Below, one piece after another: positions 8,902 through 20,176 of a DNA stretch of 64,000 bases. The translations under genes were made by a program, and so were the position numbers. The number at the start of each line of letters is the position of its first letter. Positions within the stretch are counted from its first letter, which is position 1. The notes under the pieces were generated by a model. That model was given only the letters and a program-made list of their open reading frames with translations. It did no database searches and was not told the origin of the DNA. Source of the stretch: Peptococcaceae bacterium (GTDB lineage Bacteria; Bacillota; Peptococcia; Peptococcales; Peptococcaceae); assembly GCA_017399005.1 (NCBI GenBank), contig JAFQEO010000004.1, forward strand, positions 1 to 64,000, written 5' to 3'.

Positions 8902-11900
8902 TTACGCTGCCGCATTGGCATTAATCTGTTCAATGACCGAGCGAATTCCCGCCCAGGTGTTCAGATTATCGGCAAATAAATCTACCACACTGCCTTTATC
9001 CGTAAACGGAGATTCCTGCAATACCGATAAATCTTTCATCATGCCGTTGTGTATGATGTACTCTACAATCTGATTGACAAAATAAATCTGCCGGCTGTCC
9101 ATGCTGGTTTCATTCAGATATTCTGCAAAGGCTTCTTTAGCCGCATTCATATCCAGCCCCACAATTTCCCGCACAAATTCGCCCAGCGGTTTCTGACCGT
9201 ATTCCGCTTCATAGTCCTGTTTTGTACCCACTTCATTCCAGAGTATCTGTTCCAGTGCCTTCACATCCAATTTTGTCAGCGGAATATTGGATTTTAGTTT
9301 TGCAATCGCCAGATGATCCTGATGTTCCCGCACATAAAATTCTGCTTTTGCCTTGTAGTTTTTCAGGTCATCATTTTCCAGTTCCGACTCTTTCCATTCC
9401 TGCGAAAGCAATTCATCGGAGAAGTGGGTATCGTAATGCAGTTCCACCTTAGGAATATATTTCATCAGGCCGCGCAGCCGTTCCCGGATTTCTTCAAACT
9501 GATGAATCCCGGCATTGTCCAGATAGTCCGTATGCAGAATCTGCTGAATAAATTCGCCCTGCATCTGAATTTCCGGAATATTAGCCACACTGGCAATACC
9601 ATTTACCCGTTTTACCAGATCACTTCTGGCTCTGGTATATTTTTTCCCGATCAGATAAGCCAGCTCAATACCATACATCAGGGCATCAAACCGCACCGCA
9701 CTTGCTTCGTCGCCATCAGGCAGAATCAGCGGTGACAATTCCTCCCGCACAATCAGTGTATCTTCATAGGTTAATGCCGTATAACTGCCTGGGTCTGCAT
9801 AAGTATCCACATATTTTAAATGCTGCCGTACTGCAAAATTGTCCCGGTGCTGACTGCTCAGTTCCTGTACTTTTTCAGCCATTTCCGTCACCAGTTGTTT
9901 GCGGAACGGAATCAGTTCCTCCGTCTGATAATCCAGATCCTGCAGTTTGTAGGCCATCTCAAATTTCAGCTGGAAAACTGCGCTCTGCAGCGCCATCATA
10001 TTGGCAGTTGCCTTGCCTTTGTTCATGCGGAAAAACTCAAAGTTGCCACAGAAATCAAAAATATAGAATTTCTCTTTGTCTGCTCCGTCCATAAGCCCTT
10101 TACACAGTCTGGTGCCACGGCCAATCATCTGCCAGAATTTTGCCTTGCTCATAACTTTTTTGAAAAAGACCAGATTAAGTATTTCCGGTACATCAATACC
10201 GGTATCCAGCATATCTACCGAGATAGCAATACGCGGCAATTTGTCTGCCTCTGAAAATTCATCAATGGCATTCTGGGCATATTTCACCTGATTATCAATT
10301 ACCTTTGCATAACCCGGCAAATGCGGATATTCTTTATTAAACACTTCAAAAATTTTCTCTGCGTGTCTGTGATTTTTCGCAAAGATAATGGTTTTACCCA
10401 GCGTTTCCCCATAATTCACTTTCAGACCGTCCGTCATCAGAATATGCAGCACCTGACGGATGGTGTCCTCGTTAAATATCCACGAATTCAGTGCGGAAGA
10501 ACTAATCCATTCCGGCAGTTCACCCGATTCATTCAGGAAATAATTCTCGTATTCCTCTTTCTCCTCGTCTGAAAGTTCGTCATAAACGATGCCCTGTTCA
10601 ATAAATTTCAGTTTCGTTTCCACCGACAGATAATCTACCAGATAGCCGTCTTTTACCGCCTGAGCCAGCTCATAGCCATAGGTTGGCACACCGTTTTCCA
10701 GTTCAAAAATTTCATAAGTGTTTTTATCAATTTCATCCTTTGGCGTAGCTGTTAAGCCTACCAGCGGAGCATCAAAATAATTGAAAATATCTTTGTATTT
10801 ATTGTAAATCGACCGGTGAGCCTCATCACAAATCAGCAAATCAAAATGACCGCAGGTAAACAGCTTGCCCTGTTCATCTTTCACAGAATCAATACAGTTC
10901 ATCATAGTCTGATAAGTGGAAAACACACAATGGGCGCTGTAATTATCCTTCTCCTCACAGAGGTTGGTTACCGACAAATCCGGCAGTTGGTTTGCAAAAG
11001 CTCGTTTTGCCTGTGTAACCAGCGAGTTACGGTCAGCTAAAAACAGAATATTTTTTACCCAGCCGTGCTGCAGCAGAATTTCGCACAATGCAATTACGGT
11101 TCTGGTTTTGCCCGAACCGGTAGCCATTACCAGCAGAGCCTTGCGTCGATTTTTTATATCCAGGCTGTTGCAGACTGCTTTAACAGCCGCCTCCTGATAA
11201 TAACGACCGGCAATCTTTTTATTTATCTGCACATGTTTTAAACTCGTGCGCATTGTCTGCAGATTAAACAGCTTTTCCAGATCACGTTTAGAATAAAACG
11301 CTGCTACTTTCCGTTCCGGATAGCGATTATCAATAATGCGGGTATCAAACCCGTTGGTTAAAAATATAACCGGGCGGTGGCCATACTGTTTTTCCAGCAA
11401 ATCGGCATACAATTTTGCCTGATGGCGTCCATTCTCCACACCTACGCAGGTGCGTTTCGCCTCCACCACAGCCAGAGGACGATGGGCATCATCGTACAAT
11501 ACATAATCGGCAATGCCTAAATCCGATTTATTTGGCATACCTGGCAATTCTACCTCATTGAGCCAGTCTTTGCCCTCTGTCCAGCCTGCATCTTCCAGCA
11601 TGGCATCAATATAGATTTTTCGTGTTTCATATTCCGATAATTCCAGAGGTTTCGCTACATAGCCAGGCTGCTGCTCTAAACGACGAGCCGTTAATTCTTC
11701 TTTCAGAGCCTTGTTTTCCGCAAGAAGTTTCTGCAAATCCACATCCGGAACCGATACATGACTATCCGCCTCTGCCTGTTCTAACAGTGATTTATCAAAA
11801 TCCCCAGCCGTACATTTATCCGTATAGCAGAACGCCACAAAATCCAGAAAATAATACAGATTTTCCACACAGAGCGCTACCCGTTCCTTCGACAGCTTTT

Positions 11901-12198
11901 TGCTCTCATGGTTTGCCGCATTGCCCGTTTTGCGGATAAAATCAATACGCTGCCATAAATCCGCACCAACAATATCACGAAAATCCTCATTGGTGATTAA
12001 ACTCTGCAGGTTATCCTGATACGGCGGCTCCAGGTCACGGTCTACCGAATACATAAATTTCACCGCAAACTCCATCGCACGACGGCAGTTTACCGCACAG
12101 GCACCCACATCAATTGTATATATTTTTTCAGCTGCAATCGCAGCCTGCGTAAAGCTGTCAAACCGCGGTTCCGCTTTCAGATAATCAAAATTGGTCAT
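8902..12198 (-). CDS. hsdR: Type I restriction enzyme, R subunit
   Basis: HsdR (1098 residues) is the ATP-dependent translocase and nuclease subunit of a type I restriction-modification complex. Order of domains: an N-terminal DUF4145-like helical region (~1-140), a short coiled coil, the HSDR_N nuclease with D-Y-V-L and V-V-E-A-K-R (PD-(D/E)xK type, ~residue 250), then SF2 helicase motifs: Walker A ATGSGKT, DEAH in ICDEAHRS, motif III LTATP, and IGRGTRLCKG. The C-terminal part matches the EcoEI-like R-subunit tail. The ATG at 12198 is preferred over an upstream TTG at 12213 because a GGTGAT lies just before it. It is encoded apart from hsdM/hsdS, with a toxin-antitoxin pair and accessory genes between. 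Confidence 0.95.
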   Translation of the reverse strand: MTNFDYLKAEPRFDSFTQAAIAAEKIYTIDVGACAVNCRRAMEFAVKFMYSVDRDLEPPYQDNLQSLITNEDFRDIVGADLWQRIDFIRKTGNAANHESKKLSKERVALCVENLYYFLDFVAFCYTDKCTAGDFDKSLLEQAEADSHVSVPDVDLQKLLAENKALKEELTARRLEQQPGYVAKPLELSEYETRKIYIDAMLEDAGWTEGKDWLNEVELPGMPNKSDLGIADYVLYDDAHRPLAVVEAKRTCVGVENGRHQAKLYADLLEKQYGHRPVIFLTNGFDTRIIDNRYPERKVAAFYSKRDLEKLFNLQTMRTSLKHVQINKKIAGRYYQEAAVKAVCNSLDIKNRRKALLVMATGSGKTRTVIALCEILLQHGWVKNILFLADRNSLVTQAKRAFANQLPDLSVTNLCEEKDNYSAHCVFSTYQTMMNCIDSVKDEQGKLFTCGHFDLLICDEAHRSIYNKYKDIFNYFDAPLVGLTATPKDEIDKNTYEIFELENGVPTYGYELAQAVKDGYLVDYLSVETKLKFIEQGIVYDELSDEEKEEYENYFLNESGELPEWISSSALNSWIFNEDTIRQVLHILMTDGLKVNYGETLGKTIIFAKNHRHAEKIFEVFNKEYPHLPGYAKVIDNQVKYAQNAIDEFSEADKLPRIAISVDMLDTGIDVPEILNLVFFKKVMSKAKFWQMIGRGTRLCKGLMDGADKEKFYIFDFCGNFEFFRMNKGKATANMMALQSAVFQLKFEMAYKLQDLDYQTEELIPFRKQLVTEMAEKVQELSSQHRDNFAVRQHLKYVDTYADPGSYTALTYEDTLIVREELSPLILPDGDEASAVRFDALMYGIELAYLIGKKYTRARSDLVKRVNGIASVANIPEIQMQGEFIQQILHTDYLDNAGIHQFEEIRERLRGLMKYIPKVELHYDTHFSDELLSQEWKESELENDDLKNYKAKAEFYVREHQDHLAIAKLKSNIPLTKLDVKALEQILWNEVGTKQDYEAEYGQKPLGEFVREIVGLDMNAAKEAFAEYLNETSMDSRQIYFVNQIVEYIIHNGMMKDLSVLQESPFTDKGSVVDLFADNLNTWAGIRSVIEQINANAAA

Positions 12199-12389
12199 AG
12201 ATATCACCTGCAATTGTTGGTAAGATTACTGAACGATGAGAAACATCCTTCAGCGTAGCGTGAATTGTAGATAAAATGCTTTTTCTGAATTTACTATATC
12301 ATTTTTGCGGGAAAATGTCGATAAAAGGCATACGATACATGAAAATTAATTCGCAGCCCCTTTCCCTTTTTTCAATCTACGATGTGTAC

Positions 12390-12503: not shown

Positions 12504-13196
12504 ATGGATAAAAAAATCACTCTTTTTCATGGGTCTGATAAAATTATAGAAGTTCCTGCTTTTGGTGAAGGGAAAAAAACGAACGATTTCGGGTTAGGCT
12601 TTTACTGTACGGAAAGTGAATGCCTCGCAAAAGAATGGGCGGTTTCCTCACTGCGAGATGGTTTTTGCAATCGATATACACTGGATACCGAGTATTTGAA
12701 TATTCTAAACTTAAACAGCCCCGATTATACCATTCTTAACTGGATTGCGGTTCTTGTTGAACATCGCCTTTTTGCCATAAAAACACCGGTCGCACGAAGA
12801 GCAAAACGATATTTAATTGATAACTTCGGTATCAACGTAAACGCTTACGATTTAATCATCGGATATCGCGCAGACGATTCCTACTTTGATTATGCCGAGT
12901 CTTTTATAAACAATGCCATTTCTGTTGAACAGCTTGCAAAAGCAATGCGTCTTGGAAAACTTGGCGAACAGATTGTTCTGAAATCAAAATTTGCTTTTTC
13001 CCGTATTCAGTATGAAGGCTTCGATGTTGCCGAAAAAGAAGAATTTTATGTTCTCCGCAAAGCTAGAGATCATGATGCAAACCACTTATATCTTGAAATG
13101 CTGGAAGAAGAAAGTGATGGTCTGTATATTCAGGATATTATCAGAGGAGGTATCACCAACGATGACCCACGCATACCAAGAAATATATCTAAATAA
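12504..13196 (+). CDS. DUF3990-type putative toxin (ADP-ribosyltransferase-like fold)
   Basis: This 230-residue protein resembles the DUF3990 family, thought to be related to ADP-ribosyltransferases. The opening ITLFHGSD, then DFGLGFYCTES with A-K-E-W-A downstream, and the later GEQIVLKSKFAFSRIQY, match the layout of that family (a beta-strand plus HG, the FGxGFYxT strand, and a late QIVLKS segment). The gene starts with an ATG after TTGGAGG and is followed, with a 35-nt overlap, by an XRE-domain gene, so a type II toxin-antitoxin pair is likely. The enzymatic activity is inference from fold resemblance and neighbourhood. It lies between hsdR and the other defence genes, transcribed opposite to them. 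Confidence 0.7.
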   Translation: MDKKITLFHGSDKIIEVPAFGEGKKTNDFGLGFYCTESECLAKEWAVSSLRDGFCNRYTLDTEYLNILNLNSPDYTILNWIAVLVEHRLFAIKTPVARRAKRYLIDNFGINVNAYDLIIGYRADDSYFDYAESFINNAISVEQLAKAMRLGKLGEQIVLKSKFAFSRIQYEGFDVAEKEEFYVLRKARDHDANHLYLEMLEEESDGLYIQDIIRGGITNDDPRIPRNISK

Positions 13197-13800
13197 AGCA
13201 CAATCGGTTTTAGGAGATGCTTTTGATTATGCCATCAATACATGTGGCATAACCGGTGAGGATTTCATAAAACTGTTTCTGGCAAGTACCATAAGCAAAC
13301 GAATGGAGAATGGAGAACCGGCTTATCTTGCCGGAAAAAGTGGAATCGAAATTGTCCGGGAAATTATCCTGGAAACAATGGGCAAAGAAATTACCAACGA
13401 ACCCGAGGAACATTTTGGACGCTCCAAAGAATACTGGGCTGGCTGGGCAGTGGCATATTACCAATGGTATTCGGCAAGAAGCTACCGTGAAATTTTCAAG
13501 GCTGTTTCGTTTCAGGATTTGCAGCAGATGTATTATACCCTTCACGAGGCAGACATCTCTAAATTTGTAGACATTGTAAATACACGCATTAAAGAATATT
13601 TCCCCGATACCAGCCTGAAGCGGCTTCGTACCACATACGGCTGCACCCAGGCCGAACTTGCACAAAAATCCGGTGTAAGCCTTCGTTCCATTCAGATGTA
13701 TGAACAGCGCAACAAAGACATAAACAAAGCAAGCGCCGATACCCTGTATCGACTTTCAAAAGCGCTCGGCTGCACAATGGAAGATTTGATAGAAAAATAA
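13162..13800 (+). CDS. XRE-family antitoxin/repressor paired with the DUF3990 protein
   Basis: A 212-residue protein whose last ~60 residues form a Cro/C1-type helix-turn-helix (LKRLRTTYGCTQAELAQKSGVS...IQMYEQ...ASADTLYRLSKALGC). The first ~150 residues are helical with SKEYWAGWAVAYYQWYSARSY and no recognised domain; this part probably binds the toxin. The ATG at 13162, 11 nt after GAGGAGG, lies inside the end of the toxin gene. An open frame upstream of it exists but overlaps the toxin out of frame without a ribosome binding site. It probably represses its own promoter through the TATCAC palindromes at 12393-12408 and 12447-12462 (inference). Confidence 0.75.
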   Translation: MTHAYQEIYLNKAQSVLGDAFDYAINTCGITGEDFIKLFLASTISKRMENGEPAYLAGKSGIEIVREIILETMGKEITNEPEEHFGRSKEYWAGWAVAYYQWYSARSYREIFKAVSFQDLQQMYYTLHEADISKFVDIVNTRIKEYFPDTSLKRLRTTYGCTQAELAQKSGVSLRSIQMYEQRNKDINKASADTLYRLSKALGCTMEDLIEK

Positions 13801-14032: not shown

Positions 14033-14899
14033 TCAATTTATTGGAGGCAATACCGATAACAACAAGCTTACTTTACTATCATGTTTTCCAAATTTATGCC
14101 ATTCTTTTTTAGACACTACACAACAAGATATAAGTTTGCTTACCGTAACATCTCCGCTATTGAAAGTAATACTAAAATGCTTAGAATTACGATATTTTTC
14201 ATCTAAATCACGTCTAGAACTTGTCCAGAATATTTCATATTCGTTTTGTGCAAACGCAGAATCTATTTCTATATCAATTGAATAGCTATCCCCGCAATTC
14301 ATTTCTTGAGGTATTCTCTGTGTTACACCTGCTGTACGTTTTTCAATTAAATTTTCATAGACATTACCTAATGAATCAGAAACTCTTATTATTCTAGGAA
14401 CATTCCACATTTTTTCCTCACCCTTATTTTTATAATACTGTTTTAACCCTTCAATAAAATCATGAGAATAACATATTGCTCTTTCAGCTTGATACAACGA
14501 TATGTGATTAGAATGTGAAAGTGAATTTCGAATAGGAATTAATCGACTTAAAAATTCTCGAGCTTCTTCGCATCCTTGAGGATACGCATAATCTAAAGCC
14601 TCTTTAAACAGAATTTCATACCATTTTTTATTACATAAAAAATATATAATATGGTCAAGGAACAAAGTGTCGACCGGACGACTAAACCTTTCTGGTTCAT
14701 TCCGCATCATATTATTCACATGATCACGTATTTCTTTTTTTATCAATTTTTCATTTGCATTTAGATTTGCATCAATGTAATTTTCTCCATATTGGTTGGT
14801 CATTTTTTCATGAATTAATCTTCTTGCCCAAATTTCCATTGTTTCTATATTACTTTTACAATATGAACGTAGCTTTTCCTGTGTATATTCATGATACAT
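14033..14899 (-). CDS. Swt1-like HEPN-domain protein, putative defence RNase
   Basis: A 288-residue protein. Residues ~10-150 look like a Swt1-type HEPN domain: an all-helical region ending in R-N-S-L-S-H (124-129), the Rx4H catalytic motif of HEPN ribonucleases. Residues ~165-288 are predicted beta-rich (RIIRVSDSLGNVYENL..., FSITFNSGDVTVSK) and could be an Ig-like sensor or binding domain. It is the last gene of the hsdM-hsdS run. The ATG at 14899 follows GGAAGGGATG. Immediately upstream is a remnant resembling the hsdS C-terminus. It is visibly AT-richer than hsdM. RNase activity and a role in phage defence are inferred from the motif and context, not shown. Confidence 0.6.
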   Translation of the reverse strand: MYHEYTQEKLRSYCKSNIETMEIWARRLIHEKMTNQYGENYIDANLNANEKLIKKEIRDHVNNMMRNEPERFSRPVDTLFLDHIIYFLCNKKWYEILFKEALDYAYPQGCEEAREFLSRLIPIRNSLSHSNHISLYQAERAICYSHDFIEGLKQYYKNKGEEKMWNVPRIIRVSDSLGNVYENLIEKRTAGVTQRIPQEMNCGDSYSIDIEIDSAFAQNEYEIFWTSSRRDLDEKYRNSKHFSITFNSGDVTVSKLISCCVVSKKEWHKFGKHDSKVSLLLSVLPPIN

Positions 14900-14911
14900 C
14901 TTTTCATCCCT

Positions 14912-14938
14912 TCCAAAATACTGCCATAGTAAAGTCTT
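14912..14938 (-). pseudogene. Short remnant of an hsdS 3' end upstream of the HEPN gene
   Basis: In the minus-strand frame this stretch reads K-T-L-L-W-Q-Y-F-G, matching the HsdS C-terminus K-K-A-L-M-Q-Q-Y-F-G. The 12 bases GCAGTATTTTGG are identical to the hsdS tail. It fills the gap between the stop of the two-TM gene and the Shine-Dalgarno of the HEPN gene. Confidence 0.6.
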
Positions 14939-14941
14939 ATC

Positions 14942-15667
14942 TTAATTGGTTTTAAATTCTTCCTCATCTGCAAATATAGAAAATTCAGCGCTTTGATCCC
15001 ACTCATAACAATAATCCTTGATAATTCGCAAAATCTTTCTTTGTCTCTCCATGTCCCTCGTCCATGGAAAATTTAAATACTCATCCAAATCTGTTAAAAC
15101 AGATAACATTTCATCTTGTCCTTCTTTTTCAAATAATACATTTGTTTCAAATAATACTAGCGTTGAAAAGAATCGTTCCGCTACCCACTTAAATTCTTTT
15201 CGCTCTTTCTCAGTAATAAAAGCTTCAGATTCTGACCGTAATTGTTTAATTTTTTGATGTATTTCTTTCATATTGTCGATTTGCTTCGATATTTCAACAA
15301 TATCTAATTCTTCTTTTTCAAAAATTTTTTCTAAAGAATACATCGTCATGCTAACATCATACCTTAAGGAATATCTGCGTTTCAAATACATCTTATATTG
15401 CGGAATTTTTGTTGTTAAAACTGAAACAGCTGCAAGAACTACCGAGGTAAAAATAGAACACTTTGCTTCAGCAAGAACACTACAAAATGAGTTTTTTTCA
15501 AAAAAACATACAAGAATTATAAATACAACCCAAGAAACTAGTAACCAAAAAATCGGTTTTAGTAATCGAAGGCATAATATACTCCTTCTAGCTAATCTCC
15601 GACAAGACAGTTCAAATAAAATGCGCTGATATTTTATCCGTTTCTTCAGAGGCATTTTAATCTCCAT
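14942..15667 (-). CDS. Unknown membrane protein with two TM segments and a cytoplasmic helical domain
   Basis: I do not recognise this 241-residue protein. Visible: a basic N-terminus, two hydrophobic segments (around residues 37-57, PIFWLLVSWVVFIILVCFF, and 70-90, IFTSVVLAAVSVLTT), then ~150 charged helical residues with coiled-coil character (VEISKQIDNMKEIHQKIKQLRSESEA). The layout is reminiscent of 2TM effectors in defence systems, but no catalytic motif is seen. The ATG at 15667 has GAGGTGAT 8 nt upstream, contained in a duplicated hsdS tail. It sits between the membrane/beta protein and the HEPN gene on the same strand and is AT-rich, suggesting transfer as part of the hsdS-linked cassette. 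Confidence 0.6.
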   Translation of the reverse strand: MEIKMPLKKRIKYQRILFELSCRRLARRSILCLRLLKPIFWLLVSWVVFIILVCFFEKNSFCSVLAEAKCSIFTSVVLAAVSVLTTKIPQYKMYLKRRYSLRYDVSMTMYSLEKIFEKEELDIVEISKQIDNMKEIHQKIKQLRSESEAFITEKERKEFKWVAERFFSTLVLFETNVLFEKEGQDEMLSVLTDLDEYLNFPWTRDMERQRKILRIIKDYCYEWDQSAEFSIFADEEEFKTN

Positions 15668-15675
15668 CACAAAGC

Positions 15676-15729
15676 ATCACCTCACCAAAAATGTTACTGT
15701 ATTAAAGCTTTTTTCAATGTTCCCAGCTG
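15676..15729 (-). pseudogene. Duplicated hsdS 3' tail between two accessory genes
   Basis: These 54 bp match the hsdS 3' end (16244-16297) at 46 of 54 positions without gaps, including the downstream Shine-Dalgarno GGTGAGGTGAT. In the hsdS frame it reads Q-L-G-T-L-K-K-A-L-I-Q then TAA, against Q-L-E-T-L-K-K-A-L-M-Q-Q in the intact gene. It begins nine bases after the stop of the preceding accessory gene and supplies the ribosome binding site of the next. Confidence 0.85.
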
Positions 15730-15738
15730 GTCACAAGA

Positions 15739-16239
15739 TTATTTTGACTCAGTTATATACTGCTGAAGTGTTTTTGATGTATTACATTTATAGATAACTC
15801 CTGTAGAATCTGTCACACAAAAAGTAATCGTTTTATCTCTAGGTAATGTTTTTTCATCAGTCAAATACTTCATAAATTTTGCCTTTTCCCACGGAATAAA
15901 AACACTTTCTTCGATATCAACTGAAACAGGCCAAGACAATGTTCCTATCGGTGTTTGTTCTGGACTTATCACTGCCTTTACTCCATTAGGAAGTTCAATC
16001 CAAAAATTTTGAATAATAATTTTCCGGTTCCCTGTATTCACAAAATCAACACCTACATATTGATTTTTAGGCATATAGCCGAGTACTCCCATTGGAACTG
16101 TTGGCACTATAGTCATATTCTCAACAAAAGATATCTTTGCCTTTTTCAAATTAGCAACTCTTGTCTGATATAAAGCAACAATTACAGCAGCAGTTGTAGC
16201 AATTGCACTCGTTGCATCCCAAAATATATTCCAATCCAC
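15739..16239 (-). CDS. Unknown protein with N-terminal TM anchor and beta-rich domain
   Basis: I do not recognise this 166-residue protein. A single N-terminal hydrophobic segment (AIATTAAVIVALY, about residues 8-24) is followed by a domain rich in predicted beta strands with TG-N-R-K-I-I-I-Q-N-F-W-I-E-L-P, similar in feel to Ig-like domains. It probably sits in the membrane with the domain on the cytoplasmic side (inference). Start: a GTG at 16239 placed just after the Shine-Dalgarno GAGGTGAT that overlaps the hsdS stop; a TTG at 16257 is possible but lacks a site. The gene therefore follows hsdS directly and is probably translationally coupled to it. AT-rich like its two downstream neighbours. 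Confidence 0.55.
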   Translation of the reverse strand: MDWNIFWDATSAIATTAAVIVALYQTRVANLKKAKISFVENMTIVPTVPMGVLGYMPKNQYVGVDFVNTGNRKIIIQNFWIELPNGVKAVISPEQTPIGTLSWPVSVDIEESVFIPWEKAKFMKYLTDEKTLPRDKTITFCVTDSTGVIYKCNTSKTLQQYITESK

Positions 16240-16249
16240 TTGTATCACC

Positions 16250-17419
16250 TCACCCAAAATACTGCTGCATTAATGCTTTCTTCAATGTTTCCAGCTGCTC
16301 TAAGCTTTTTTGTACTGCCAATTTTGATTTGTCGGTCTGTTCGACAAAGACTGCGAACTGATTTTGTAAGTTAATATCTGGCTTTAATAGATTTAACTGC
16401 ACGAGCCTTTTTATCGGTAATTGAGGTTGTGCCGAACCGCTAATCAGTTTTTGAATCTCTGCCTGTGTATTATCCAATTTCAAATACCACGACAAAAACA
16501 AAGGGTTGTACTCTTTTTTAGGACACCTTAATAATACGATTTGTGCATTGATATTTGAGTCTTCGTGTCTTGGCGGTACGCATGCAATCTTGCCAATAGT
16601 TGCACCACGAGTTGTAATCAATACGTCCCCCGCTTTTACATGACCTTTAAGAAGAATAGCATGCTTTTCCTTTGTAATGAAATACATATTGTTATCTACA
16701 ATCGTATTCATTTCCATATTACTTGCTCTAATGAACGGGACACCTTCTTCTACGAACTCATCCGCTGTAGGGTACTTACTTGAATAGTTGCCATCGGAAA
16801 TATAGATATTTGAATCTTGTAGTAGTTCATAGGTGTCGCACGCACCAAACAGTTCGACAAATCGTGCTTTGACAAGCTCGTCTAATATAAAAAGTTGCTG
16901 TTTGCGTAAACTAATTAAATCAATAACTTTATTCATACAAGCAACGATTTCATTTTGTTTTTCATCATCATACATCGTTATTTCAAATTCACTTATATCT
17001 TTAAGAGAAAGATTTAACTGAGCAACGCCTTGTTTTCTTTTCTCTAATTGCTCTGTAATAACTGGTGATTGCATGAGATAATTCAAATACTGATAATTAA
17101 TTATTCCCTCTGGTACGCGAATAATAGCTAAGGCTTGGTTTGTATTTGCTGGAAGTATTTCATCAGTTACAATTGCTGTTCTACCAATCGCACCTGCAAT
17201 TGAAAAAAGTAAATCATTTTTCTTTAATTGTGAACGTGAAAGATTTTCATTACATTCATGCGTGATATGTGCAAATTTTTCTACAAGGAACTCACCATTT
17301 TCCGTAATACTCTCTATCTTCACAAAATTAATACCTTCATCAACGAAATTATATCCTAATGTCGTTGGAGTAGTCCCTTTTGTAATAAGCGTGGCAATAT
17401 CTCCCAATTTCACTCTCAT
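16250..17419 (-). CDS. hsdS: Type I restriction-modification specificity subunit
   Basis: HsdS (389 residues) gives the complex its DNA target. Two target-recognition domains are visible, each followed by a conserved helix: TRD1 starts VKLGDIATLITKGTTPTT and ends near the LISLRKQQLFILDELVKARFVELFG spacer helix (~165-195); TRD2 (SDGNYSSKYPTADEF..., GDVLITTRGATIGKI) ends in SLEQLETLKKALMQQYFG. The ATG overlaps the hsdM stop by 4 nt (ATGA). The gene is clearly more AT-rich than hsdM, normal for exchangeable specificity genes. Remnants of its 3' end recur twice further downstream (15676-15729 and 14912-14938). Confidence 0.95.
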   Translation of the reverse strand: MRVKLGDIATLITKGTTPTTLGYNFVDEGINFVKIESITENGEFLVEKFAHITHECNENLSRSQLKKNDLLFSIAGAIGRTAIVTDEILPANTNQALAIIRVPEGIINYQYLNYLMQSPVITEQLEKRKQGVAQLNLSLKDISEFEITMYDDEKQNEIVACMNKVIDLISLRKQQLFILDELVKARFVELFGACDTYELLQDSNIYISDGNYSSKYPTADEFVEEGVPFIRASNMEMNTIVDNNMYFITKEKHAILLKGHVKAGDVLITTRGATIGKIACVPPRHEDSNINAQIVLLRCPKKEYNPLFLSWYLKLDNTQAEIQKLISGSAQPQLPIKRLVQLNLLKPDINLQNQFAVFVEQTDKSKLAVQKSLEQLETLKKALMQQYFG

Positions 17420-18912
17420 AGCATCTCCTCCAGTTCTGCCAAACCGGCGGTGATTTGCATTTCGAGTTCGTGCAGTTCGGTCATGATTTCCATTGTGGAT
17501 GGGTATTCGACTGGTACATACTCAACTTCTTTGTATTTGTTGATGGATAAGTCGTACCCGTTATCAACGATTTCCTGTTTTGGCACAAAGAAGCTCTGTT
17601 CGGTGCGTTTGCGCTGTGCTTCATCGGCAAGGTTATGGAACCGGGCAATGATATCAGGGATATCGTTATCACTAATGGCGGTGCGTTTATCATCCAGGCT
17701 GTAGCCGTCGGCTTTCATGTCATAAAACCATATGTTATCGGTGCCGCCGTGGCCTGTTTTTGTGAAAATCAGAATCCCGGTGGATACGCCTGCATAAGGT
17801 TTAAATACGCCGCTCGGCATGGAGATGACTGCTTCCAGCCGATGGTTTTCCACCAGTTCTTTGCGGATGGCTTTATGAGCTGTGGAGGAGCCAAACAAAA
17901 CACCATCAGGTACGATACACGCACAGCGGCCACCGGTTTTCAGCATGCGAAGGAATAAAGCTAAAAACAGTAATTCCGTCTTTTTGGTTTTGCACAGTTT
18001 CAGTAAATCGGCGGATACAATATCGTTATCCAGGCTGCCTTTAAACGGAGGGTTGGCCAGAATCAAAGAATATTTATCCCGGTCTGCGTTCTGGTCGGAT
18101 AGACTGTCGCGGTATTCAATAAACGGGTTGTCCACACCATGGGTCATCATATTCATGGCGCCGATACGCAGCATGGTGCGGTCCATATCAAAGCCGTGAA
18201 ACATATGATTCATGTAATGCTCTTTGTTCTGTTTGTTAAAGAAAATCTCTTCTTTGTGTGTTTCTTTCAGATATTCGCTGGCATTTACTAAAAAGCCCGA
18301 TGTACCGCAGGCAGGGTCACAGATAATATCGCCCGGCTGCGGCTCCATTAATTCCACCATCATACGGATAATGTGCCTTGGCGTACGGAACTGACCGTTT
18401 ACACCGGCAGTGGCAATTTTAGAAAGCAGATATTCATAAATGTCTCCGCGGGTGTCACTGTCCTGCAGCTGTGCCATCTGTTCATAAATGGCATCCAGCG
18501 CAGTTACAATTTTGTCCAGCATCAGCGGAGTTGGAATTTTAAAAATAGCATCGTCCATATATTTTGCATAGGCACTTGCCTTATCGCCGTGCAGAGTTTT
18601 GATAAACGGGAACACCCACTCCTGCACTACCGAATACATCTTGCCGGCATTAAAATCCCGAAATACCGACCATTTCAGCTGATTCCCCAGGATAACACGG
18701 TCGCCGATGGTTATATCTCCTGCAAACATACTGTGATAAGGCAGCCCCAGCATAGCGCTTTCCTTTGCTTTACGGTTATCGGCATCGTCTAAATCATGAA
18801 TAAACATCAGGTAGGTCATCTGCTCCACCACATCCAGCGGATTGGTAATGCCGCCCGTCCAGAAAATCTCCCATAAACTGTCTACTTTATTTTTCAGTTC
18901 CCCTGTAATCAT
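17416..18912 (-). CDS. hsdM: Type I restriction-modification DNA methyltransferase subunit
   Basis: HsdM (498 residues) methylates adenine N6 in the target chosen by HsdS. It has the HsdM N-terminal helical domain (~1-150), the SAM-binding motif DPACGTSGFLV and the catalytic NPPF in ILANPPFKGSLD, plus the family-typical FGSSTAHKAIRKELVENHRLEAVISMPSGVFKPYAGV. The ATG at 18912 lies 1 nt after the fic stop with AGGGAG upstream; ATG 18921 is an alternative. fic, hsdM and hsdS are thus tightly packed and probably one transcript from the promoter at 20027-20055. Confidence 0.96.
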   Translation of the reverse strand: MITGELKNKVDSLWEIFWTGGITNPLDVVEQMTYLMFIHDLDDADNRKAKESAMLGLPYHSMFAGDITIGDRVILGNQLKWSVFRDFNAGKMYSVVQEWVFPFIKTLHGDKASAYAKYMDDAIFKIPTPLMLDKIVTALDAIYEQMAQLQDSDTRGDIYEYLLSKIATAGVNGQFRTPRHIIRMMVELMEPQPGDIICDPACGTSGFLVNASEYLKETHKEEIFFNKQNKEHYMNHMFHGFDMDRTMLRIGAMNMMTHGVDNPFIEYRDSLSDQNADRDKYSLILANPPFKGSLDNDIVSADLLKLCKTKKTELLFLALFLRMLKTGGRCACIVPDGVLFGSSTAHKAIRKELVENHRLEAVISMPSGVFKPYAGVSTGILIFTKTGHGGTDNIWFYDMKADGYSLDDKRTAISDNDIPDIIARFHNLADEAQRKRTEQSFFVPKQEIVDNGYDLSINKYKEVEYVPVEYPSTMEIMTELHELEMQITAGLAELEEML

Positions 18913-18913
18913 A

Positions 18914-19969
18914 TCAATCATTCTCCCTGTTCCATGTATAAGCTGTATATCGCCCGCCACCGATTTTTATAATATCACCGCTTGCCATCAGATTATTTAA
19001 TGTACGCTGAATCGTAATGGTACTGATATCCGGGCATTTCTGCTGAATCTCTGCTTTTGTAATTTTACCTACTGTGTTTTTTATCAGTTCTGCTATCCGT
19101 TCCGGTTTTGATAACCCGCTGGCAGTCAGTGTTTTTACACGGGAAGAAAACTCCCGGTAGGCACTAAGTATAATCCCTAACATATAACGTACAAACGGTT
19201 CATAGCGGTTCTGCTCCTCGTGCCAGTTCTGTGAGCTGGTCTGCAATGCCTCATAGTATGTTTCTTTCGTCTGTTCAATCAGCTTTTCAATACTGATATA
19301 TTTTCCCACGATATAACCGGAACGATATAACAGCAGTAATGTAAGCAGTCTGCTCATTCGACCGTTTCCATCATTAAATGGATGAATACACAGAAAATCC
19401 AGCACAAACATCGGAATCAGAAGCAGCGCATCTATCTCCTCACGCCCTATCGCTTCATCAAAAGCTTTACATAACCGTTCCATGGCATCCTGTGTTTCCC
19501 ATGCCGGAACCGGCTGAAATCGAATCGTCCGTCTCCCCTGTGCATCTTCTTCTGCAATCACATTATCGGTATTCTTATAGCGTCCACCTTCAGTTCCACT
19601 GAACCGGTATAAATCTCTATGCAGCTGCAGCATAATCGAAGGTTTCACCGGAATATAGTCATAATTTTCGTGAATACTGTTTAAAACATCCCGATAACCG
19701 GCAATCTCCTGTTCGCTCCGCGTACTGGGCATTGTCTTATCTTTTACAAGCAACCGCAGTCGTTCATCAGAGGTATATATGCCTTCAATGCGGTTGGATG
19801 CCTCTGTACTCTGAATCCGGGCAATCTCTGTAAGCTGTGCCAGAGTATCTGTCTGTGCTTCAATAAACAGCGTCTGCTCTCCTTTATATTCGTGAATCCG
19901 GGTGAGCAAGCCGACAATTTCAGGAGTCAGCAACTGCTCCCACTTTTTTGTATAATCATAATTTCTCAT
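18914..19969 (-). CDS. Fic-domain protein (class II, N-terminal inhibitory helix) with C-terminal winged helix
   Basis: A 351-residue Fic/DOC-superfamily protein expected to transfer AMP or another nucleotide moiety to a protein target. The N-terminal helix has STEASNRIEG (54-63), the (S/T)xxxE(G/N)-type inhibitory motif that blocks the active site in cis. The catalytic loop is HPFNDGNGRMSR (196-207), intact. The C-terminus (~285-351, PERIAELIKNTVGKITKAEIQQ...TIQRTLNNLMASGDI) is a winged helix typical of Fic regulators. It leads the fic-hsdM-hsdS run. A 42-bp perfect palindrome overlaps its promoter -35, suggesting autoregulation. Fic genes next to type I systems are common; what it modifies here is unknown. 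Confidence 0.92.
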   Translation of the reverse strand: MRNYDYTKKWEQLLTPEIVGLLTRIHEYKGEQTLFIEAQTDTLAQLTEIARIQSTEASNRIEGIYTSDERLRLLVKDKTMPSTRSEQEIAGYRDVLNSIHENYDYIPVKPSIMLQLHRDLYRFSGTEGGRYKNTDNVIAEEDAQGRRTIRFQPVPAWETQDAMERLCKAFDEAIGREEIDALLLIPMFVLDFLCIHPFNDGNGRMSRLLTLLLLYRSGYIVGKYISIEKLIEQTKETYYEALQTSSQNWHEEQNRYEPFVRYMLGIILSAYREFSSRVKTLTASGLSKPERIAELIKNTVGKITKAEIQQKCPDISTITIQRTLNNLMASGDIIKIGGGRYTAYTWNREND

Positions 19970-20026
19970 GTTAACTTCCTCATTCCAGTTTTAATTACAT
20001 CATCTTAGATAAAATGATATAGTTAT

Positions 20027-20055
20027 ATTATACAATGCAACTGCATCATTTTCAA
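20027..20055 (-). promoter_or_regulatory. Predicted promoter of the fic-hsdM-hsdS operon
   Basis: On the minus strand TTGAAA (20050-20055), a 17-nt spacer and a perfect TATAAT (20027-20032) stand 58 nt before the fic start. Confidence 0.75.
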
Positions 20056-20095
20056 TTCAATTACATCATTTTTGCAAAAATGATGTAATTGAATT
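20054..20095. promoter_or_regulatory. 42-bp perfect palindrome overlapping the fic promoter -35
   Basis: Twenty-one consecutive base pairs are symmetric around the GC at 20074/20075; the inner arm contains ATTACATCATTTTT. Partial copies of the half-site (TTACATCAT near 19994, GCATCATTTT near 20043) flank the promoter. Likely operator for the winged-helix Fic protein or another regulator. A hairpin or terminator role is less likely as no gene ends here. Confidence 0.6.
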
Positions 20096-20131
20096 CAGAA
20101 ATGAGTAAATTGAACAATAACATAACACACA

Positions 20132-20163
20132 AAAAAACAGGCACAAGCCGTAGCCTGTACCTG
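20132..20163 (-). terminator. Terminator of yajC; copy 2 of the 32-bp direct repeat
   Basis: Identical over 32 bp to 8865-8896 and in the same orientation, 13 nt after the yajC stop. The minus-strand hairpin ACAGGCTAC...GTGCCTGT is followed by a T-run. Together the two copies enclose the defence island. Confidence 0.85.
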
Positions 20164-20176
20164 TCAAAAAACAATA

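Follow-up and report, generated by a model that had tools for sequence, protein, structure and literature searches.

The C proteins of type II restriction-modification (R-M) systems are small helix-turn-helix (HTH) proteins that regulate their own genes through palindromes and thereby set R-M expression. Regulation of type I R-M operons is little known; in the literature we searched, the only dedicated repressor of a type I system is RptR, reported in 2025. For Fic proteins, the catalytic motif is worded HPFx[D/E]GN[G/K]R in the available text of PMC2686095, and the accessible part of Kinch et al. 2009 suggests that an HTH domain joined to Fic may serve to regulate the fic gene. CccR of Yersinia pseudotuberculosis, according to the available sections of its description, combines a class II Fic domain, with the inhibitory motif SARIEG, and a C-terminal HTH, and it represses its own promoter (PMC9755527). 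Its footprint is AGATAATCAT-N26-ATGATAATCT, mutation of which abolishes binding and repression, and the authors report its regulatory and toxic activities to be independent (PMC9755527). In the accessible text on CbFic2 of Coxiella burnetii, DNA stimulates the enzyme, which is a precedent for a link between DNA and AMPylation (PMC10628234). Fic proteins that repress their own genes are known, and so, separately, is a repressor of type I R-M; a Fic protein acting as a dedicated type I R-M controller, with a multi-site operator and an evolving code, was not found in the literature searched. Here we analyze a candidate for such a site, located in front of a fic-hsdM-hsdS operon.

The fic locus and its palindrome

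The window, a 64,000-nucleotide stretch of Peptococcaceae DNA, carries on its minus strand fic (18914-19969), hsdM (17416-18960), whose start region overlaps the fic end, and hsdS (16250-17419), which overlaps the hsdM end. The type I R-M set is complete, since the PADLOC matches MTase_I, Specificity_I, and REase_I correspond to hsdM, hsdS, and hsdR. However, hsdR, also on the minus strand, stands apart in the same island (8902-12213), and the initial proposal that Fic controls the whole restriction operon must be narrowed: it extends to hsdM and hsdS and leaves out the separate hsdR. The gap contains three genes that match no family with confidence and a pair on the opposite strand. The three lie behind hsdS on the minus strand (14033-16257; 288, 242, and 172 amino acids) and are without a Pfam or NCBIfam match. 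The pair is on the plus strand (12504-13800); its first product matches the PADLOC candidate defence models PDC-M42A, and its second, by eye, has an HTH-like stretch at its end. Upstream of the fic promoter is a gene that looks yajC-like by eye, with its own intrinsic terminator-like site at its end, ahead of that promoter (20136-20165, minus strand).

Fic itself is a class II protein with an intact catalytic motif, HPFNDGNGRMSR, a Pfam Fic match of 58 bits against a cut-off of 24, and, by inspection, the class II inhibitory-helix motif SNRIEG at residues 58-63. Across 50 aligned Fic proteins H196, P197, and D200-R204 are invariant, and F198 and N199 are conserved in at least 90%. HTH matches of this protein in Pfam are below cut-off only. 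The AlphaFold2 model (mean pLDDT, 87.7) bears out the C-terminal winged helix that had been assigned from sequence, with helices at residues 288-298, 305-311, and 317-329 and strands at 333-336 and 343-346. Helix 317-329 is the predicted recognition helix (codons at 18983-19021, minus strand) and is followed by a two-strand wing.

The fic promoter, TTGAAA-17-TATAAT, was called correctly in the initial annotation. It is read from the minus strand (20055-20027), with the -35 box at 20050-20055 and the -10 box at 20027-20032, and it agrees with the consensus at 11 of 12 positions. The perfect palindrome of 42 bp is there as well: 21 pairs without interruption between the arms AATTCAATTACATCATTTTTG and CAAAAATGATGTAATTGAATT, spanning 20054-20095 with the center at 20074/20075. 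We call it O1, the proposed principal Fic operator. Its overlap with the -35 box is real but amounts to two bases only (20054-20055). The further half-sites that had been pointed out around the promoter are also present, which brings the upstream region to six half-sites of the form AATTnnnTCATTT. O1 contributes an inner pair, AATT-ACA-TCATTT on the plus strand (20059-20071) and again on the minus strand (20078-20090), both with the core ACA and with 10 bp separating the TCAT ends. A second, imperfect palindrome, O2, lies 2 bp beyond the -10 box and starts 8 nt after the start of that hexamer; it consists of AATT-ACA-TCATCT (19993-20005, plus) and AACT-ATA-TCATTT (20012-20024, minus). The two accessory half-sites are AACT-GCA-TCATTT (20039-20051, plus), which sits between the -35 and -10 boxes, touches the former, and is about two helical turns from an O1 half-site, and the weaker AATT-TAC-TCATTT on the far side of O1 (20099-20111, minus). 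Since O2 is about half a turn out of phase with O1 (spacings of 66 to 68 bp), we claim no looping model.

A palindrome of 42 bp is far beyond chance: the window scores 21, and a score of at least 13 was reached in 0 of 395 dinucleotide shuffles of the 79 such upstream regions. In the 2.41-Mb genome, the 32-bp inner part of O1 has one site with up to 3 mismatches allowed. When the central 10 bases were left free, the scan returned three sites, O1 (0 mismatches), O2 (2), and one inside hsdR (3). That last match (9033-9062) falls within coding sequence and is probably due to chance. Matches at about -16 were taken as ribosome-binding sites (AGGA) and left out of the operator half-site counts.

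The symmetry of the arms can run well past the half-sites. It is perfect for at least 5 further bases in 13 of 104 loci, against about 2% when arms are compared between loci; examples are the window (20054-20095) and L047, L049, L143, L051, and L022. The sequence of the extended stretch is largely unshared between loci. Template-switch correction of quasi-palindromes is perhaps the source of this symmetry, and it could let both arms change together.

Conservation and placement of the site

A single scan gave 80 relatives of Fic, 63 to 75% identical to it; 78 of them had upstream DNA, which with the window makes 79 regions (L055 and L077, with no upstream DNA, and L083, truncated, were unusable). 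The initial annotation had tied its proposal to recurrence of the half-site before other fic genes, and the site does recur: an inverted half-site pair with up to 2 mismatches is found in 58 of the 79 regions, compared to 0.08% of 3950 shuffles and 2 of 1725 control windows from the same loci. The half-site motif was derived from these same loci, so a motif-free test matters. Indeed, a motif-free palindrome score of at least 10 is reached in 58/79 regions versus 0.5% of 395 shuffles. Measured from start to start, the half-sites lie 19 or 20 bp apart in 71 of the 72 loci with a callable pair. The cores are then separated by 21 to 22 bp, roughly two turns of the helix. The accessory half-sites stand a further 20 to 21 bp out and, at up to 2 mismatches, occur on the left in 16/74 loci and on the right in 20/74, compared to 3 to 4% of random windows. 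No callable operator pair was found in 7 of 79 loci of the first set and in 6 of 45 test loci (described below).

Two observations concern sites elsewhere. At L059 (4321-4352) there is a second operator copy, with the core ATA, about 260 bp downstream of fic, and some Fic proteins may therefore control another promoter. Among 104 newly located Fic proteins, 43 of about 44 to 53% identity are as a rule without this motif, and these were excluded from rule testing and covariation. Subfamilies in this range (44 to 52% identical; L154, L169, L170, L174, L176, L180, and L186) have other inverted pairs upstream, such as TATCGCCTAAT, ATACTCCTAATTT, and ATTCCCTTAATTT, together with a different recognition helix; judging from sequence, they may represent another class of operator of this kind.

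We then related the palindrome to the promoter in 104 loci whose Fic proteins are less than 97% identical. By a simple score, 90 of them have a strong promoter. The -35 box starts 14 to 24 bp past the palindrome center in 74 of the 104, and in 72 of those the distance is 18 to 22 bp; the palindrome-to-ATG distance, in contrast, differs greatly between loci. At 10 other loci the -35 box is upstream of the palindrome center and the palindrome covers the -10 region, an arrangement that fits the clade whose site is at about -57. An O2 pair with up to 4 mismatches is present at 26 of the 74 loci with the O1-type position, and in 21 of these 26 its start follows that of the -10 box by exactly 8 nt. 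With the palindrome locked to the -35 box and O2 to the -10 box, the site is tied to the promoter. This fits control of transcription, not of translation.

Core bases and residues of the recognition helix

The three core bases, p3, p4, and p5, vary by locus (TAA, GCA, TTA, ATA, TAG, ACA, TGA, and others), and in 50 of the 72 loci that could be called the two arms have identical bases at all five core positions. We ranked all 305 variable columns of 71 non-redundant Fic proteins (less than 85% identical) for covariation with the core. For the whole triplet, the top three are residues 317, 318, and 321, which open the predicted recognition helix of the winged helix. Base by base, the best column is 317 for p3, 321 for p4, and 318 for p5. 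Because all protein columns were ranked, shared ancestry is controlled for.

Three rules were fixed before the test loci were fetched. New Fic proteins came from 397 and 394 genomes plus 40 further stretches. Of the 104 located, 60 were at least 55% identical and had a readable helix (L116 lacked one), 45 of the 60 were less than 90% identical to every training protein, and 39 of these had a callable operator. Rule 1, by which T, K, or R at 318 gives G at p5 and I, V, or A gives A, held in 30 of 39 test loci and failed in 9; where both arms agree, it held in 17/17. Rule 3 (E at 321 gives C at p4, and Q gives a base other than C) held in 37/39. Rule 2, which reads p3 from residue 317, was right for Q and T in 17/17 loci; for residues other than Q at 317 it held in 3 of 16 test loci and failed in 13, chiefly in one K317 clade with C at p3. 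With the 37 loci of the test-only set ranked by themselves, 318 again leads for p5, p4 is best tracked by 317 and 321, and 317 comes second for p3; for the whole triplet, 317, 318, and 321 rank 1, 37, and 7.

Nature also provides a helix swap of one residue and one base: L109 has KTTVERTL with CTCCG, while L111 and L112 have KVTVERTL with CTCCA. Independent pairs were drawn on a tree that left the winged helix out of account. For 318 and p5 they gave 4.4 in the predicted direction and 0 in the opposite one among 5 supported pairs, too few for significance, and the pairs for 321/p4 and 317/p3 often held no difference. Taken together, the covariation between core bases and helix residues reads like a protein-DNA recognition code.

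Competing readings and described systems

Since the palindrome precedes hsdM and hsdS, and hsdM follows fic in 62 of 80 relatives, the site might instead be read by the HsdM/HsdS methylase or be its recognition sequence. Three results make this highly improbable. Eleven other fic loci have about 3 kb of downstream DNA without hsdM; 10 of these also have upstream DNA, and a callable operator is retained by 9 of them, all except L079. Conversely, the palindrome is absent from all three HsdM relatives without fic (only three, 55 to 64% identical). Finally, the core tracks Fic residues and not HsdS, whose median identity across 36 loci is 27% in 86 same-core pairs and 27% in 544 different-core pairs; recognition by HsdS was rejected on this equality. 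A site that solitary fic genes keep, that HsdM relatives without fic lack, and that HsdS does not track belongs to fic. The solitary fic genes have varied neighbors, including a HipA-like protein, a GGDEF-like protein (by eye), a DEAD helicase, and a YhcG nuclease. At L008 (4079-5224), the place of hsdM behind an operator-bearing fic is taken by genes for a HipA-like protein (weak Pfam match) and an ATPase-like product. At L079 (4392-6803), where the solitary fic has no clear operator, the opposite strand downstream of it encodes a TIR-STAND-TPR-like protein. Binding by some other host regulator is conceivable, as Fic binding is itself deduced from sequence, but we give it a very small probability, because, of all Fic columns, the covariation picks those in the protein's own helix, and because the site goes with fic even where the surrounding genes are unrelated. 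Perfect inverted repeats can extrude or fold, and O1 could in principle act as nucleic-acid structure (a terminator, a cruciform, or an RNA hairpin) or be the remnant of a mobile element. This is next to negligible: the palindrome is upstream of the promoter and so outside the fic transcript, its position is locked to the -35 box, and its core is tied to protein residues. A terminator or repeat element was rejected, given the single genomic site at up to 3 mismatches, that same locked position, and the separate terminator-like site at 20165-20136.

More serious is the possibility that Fic binds the palindrome but activates, or that it switches, activating from O1 alone and repressing once O2 is bound. 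Some controller proteins of type II R-M systems do switch between activation and repression. The O1 center precedes the start of the -35 box by about 20 bp, which is where an activator could sit, and O2 just downstream of the -10 box would suit a switch. However, many of the promoters have the full consensus TTGACA-17-TATAAT and would need no activator, the palindrome covers the -10 region in another 10 loci, an O2 pair is found in only 26 of the 74 O1-type loci, and CccR represses. We therefore regard activation or switching as unlikely.

We consider it quite probable that a Fic autorepressor of fic-hsdM-hsdS uses the palindrome as its main operator. In a putative Fic dimer, the recognition helix of each winged helix would enter a major groove, the two grooves facing the same side of the DNA at a distance of about 21 bp. 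The dimer would bind O1, abutting the -35 box, and further Fic would fill the accessory half-sites and O2. Cover from the -35 box to the +1 region would then shut the near-consensus promoter and turn off transcription of fic-hsdM-hsdS. Residue 317 would mainly set p3 and help with p4, 321 would set p4, and 318 would set p5; with such settings, lineages could have drifted to different operators. The earlier suggestion of autorepression through the winged helix thus gains from conservation of the palindrome before orthologous fic genes and from covariation of the core with the predicted helix, while repression as such is what these patterns suggest. Its companion idea, tuning of operator control by AMPylation, has no support in this analysis.

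A broader proposal, which we hold tentatively, is that this Fic family may be a dedicated transcriptional controller of type I R-M operons in gut Firmicutes and others. It would have evolved many orthogonal operator specificities by a compact three-residue, three-base code (317 to p3, 321 to p4, 318 to p5), which would let several such Fic controllers share a cell, and operator binding may set the AMPylation state, coupling expression of the restriction genes to a relative of phage-defence toxins. With a Fic enzyme as controller, restriction would be linked to an AMPylating protein that has abortive anti-phage toxins among its relatives. The code would predict operators of unstudied Fic proteins from sequence, and many orthogonal repressor-operator pairs on one scaffold would be useful genetic parts.

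Among described proteins, the anti-phage protein SoFic (PMC12249575) is a related Fic: the window protein matches the PADLOC SoFic model with an E value of 1.4e-38. It falls far short of the cut-off of the NCBIfam SoFic equivalog (50.5 versus 550 bits), the PADLOC profile matching more broadly, and the terms winged, DNA-binding, and transcription are absent from the available text of the SoFic paper (PMC12249575). CbFic2 is likewise a Fic enzyme with a DNA-binding winged helix, and its structure aligns with residues 1-348 of our model (Z score, 24.5; rmsd, 4.9 over 302 residues), a comparison that mostly tests the Fic domain and says little about the winged helix. In the accessible part of its description it differs, in that it was tested on random DNA, without an operator, and it AMPylates a host histone (PMC10628234). 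RptR, as far as its available text goes, resembles the Fic proposed here in being a dedicated autorepressor, encoded by the first gene of a type I R-M operon, with several operator copies at the promoter; unlike it, RptR is a small helical protein with TAGCTA direct-repeat sites and few operator variants (PMC12255303). Words beginning with "fic" are absent from that text (PMC12255303), and by reading, TAGCTA is absent from 19970-20130 of the window. Type II C proteins share autoregulation through a palindrome, whereas here the protein is a Fic and the system is type I. CccR differs, in the available sections of its description, as a secreted T6SS effector whose half-sites are 26 bp apart, compared to 10 in O1, and neither a restriction operon nor an operator code is part of those sections (PMC9755527). 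Given this spacing, we take the window Fic to be CccR-like in its working and do not claim the same type of protein. The likeness is that of a distant Fic-HTH protein with inverted half-sites at its own promoter, as in the window, and it reaches the half-site itself: AGATAATCAT shares TAATCAT with AATT-TAA-TCAT, a common half-site in this family (PMC9755527, available text).
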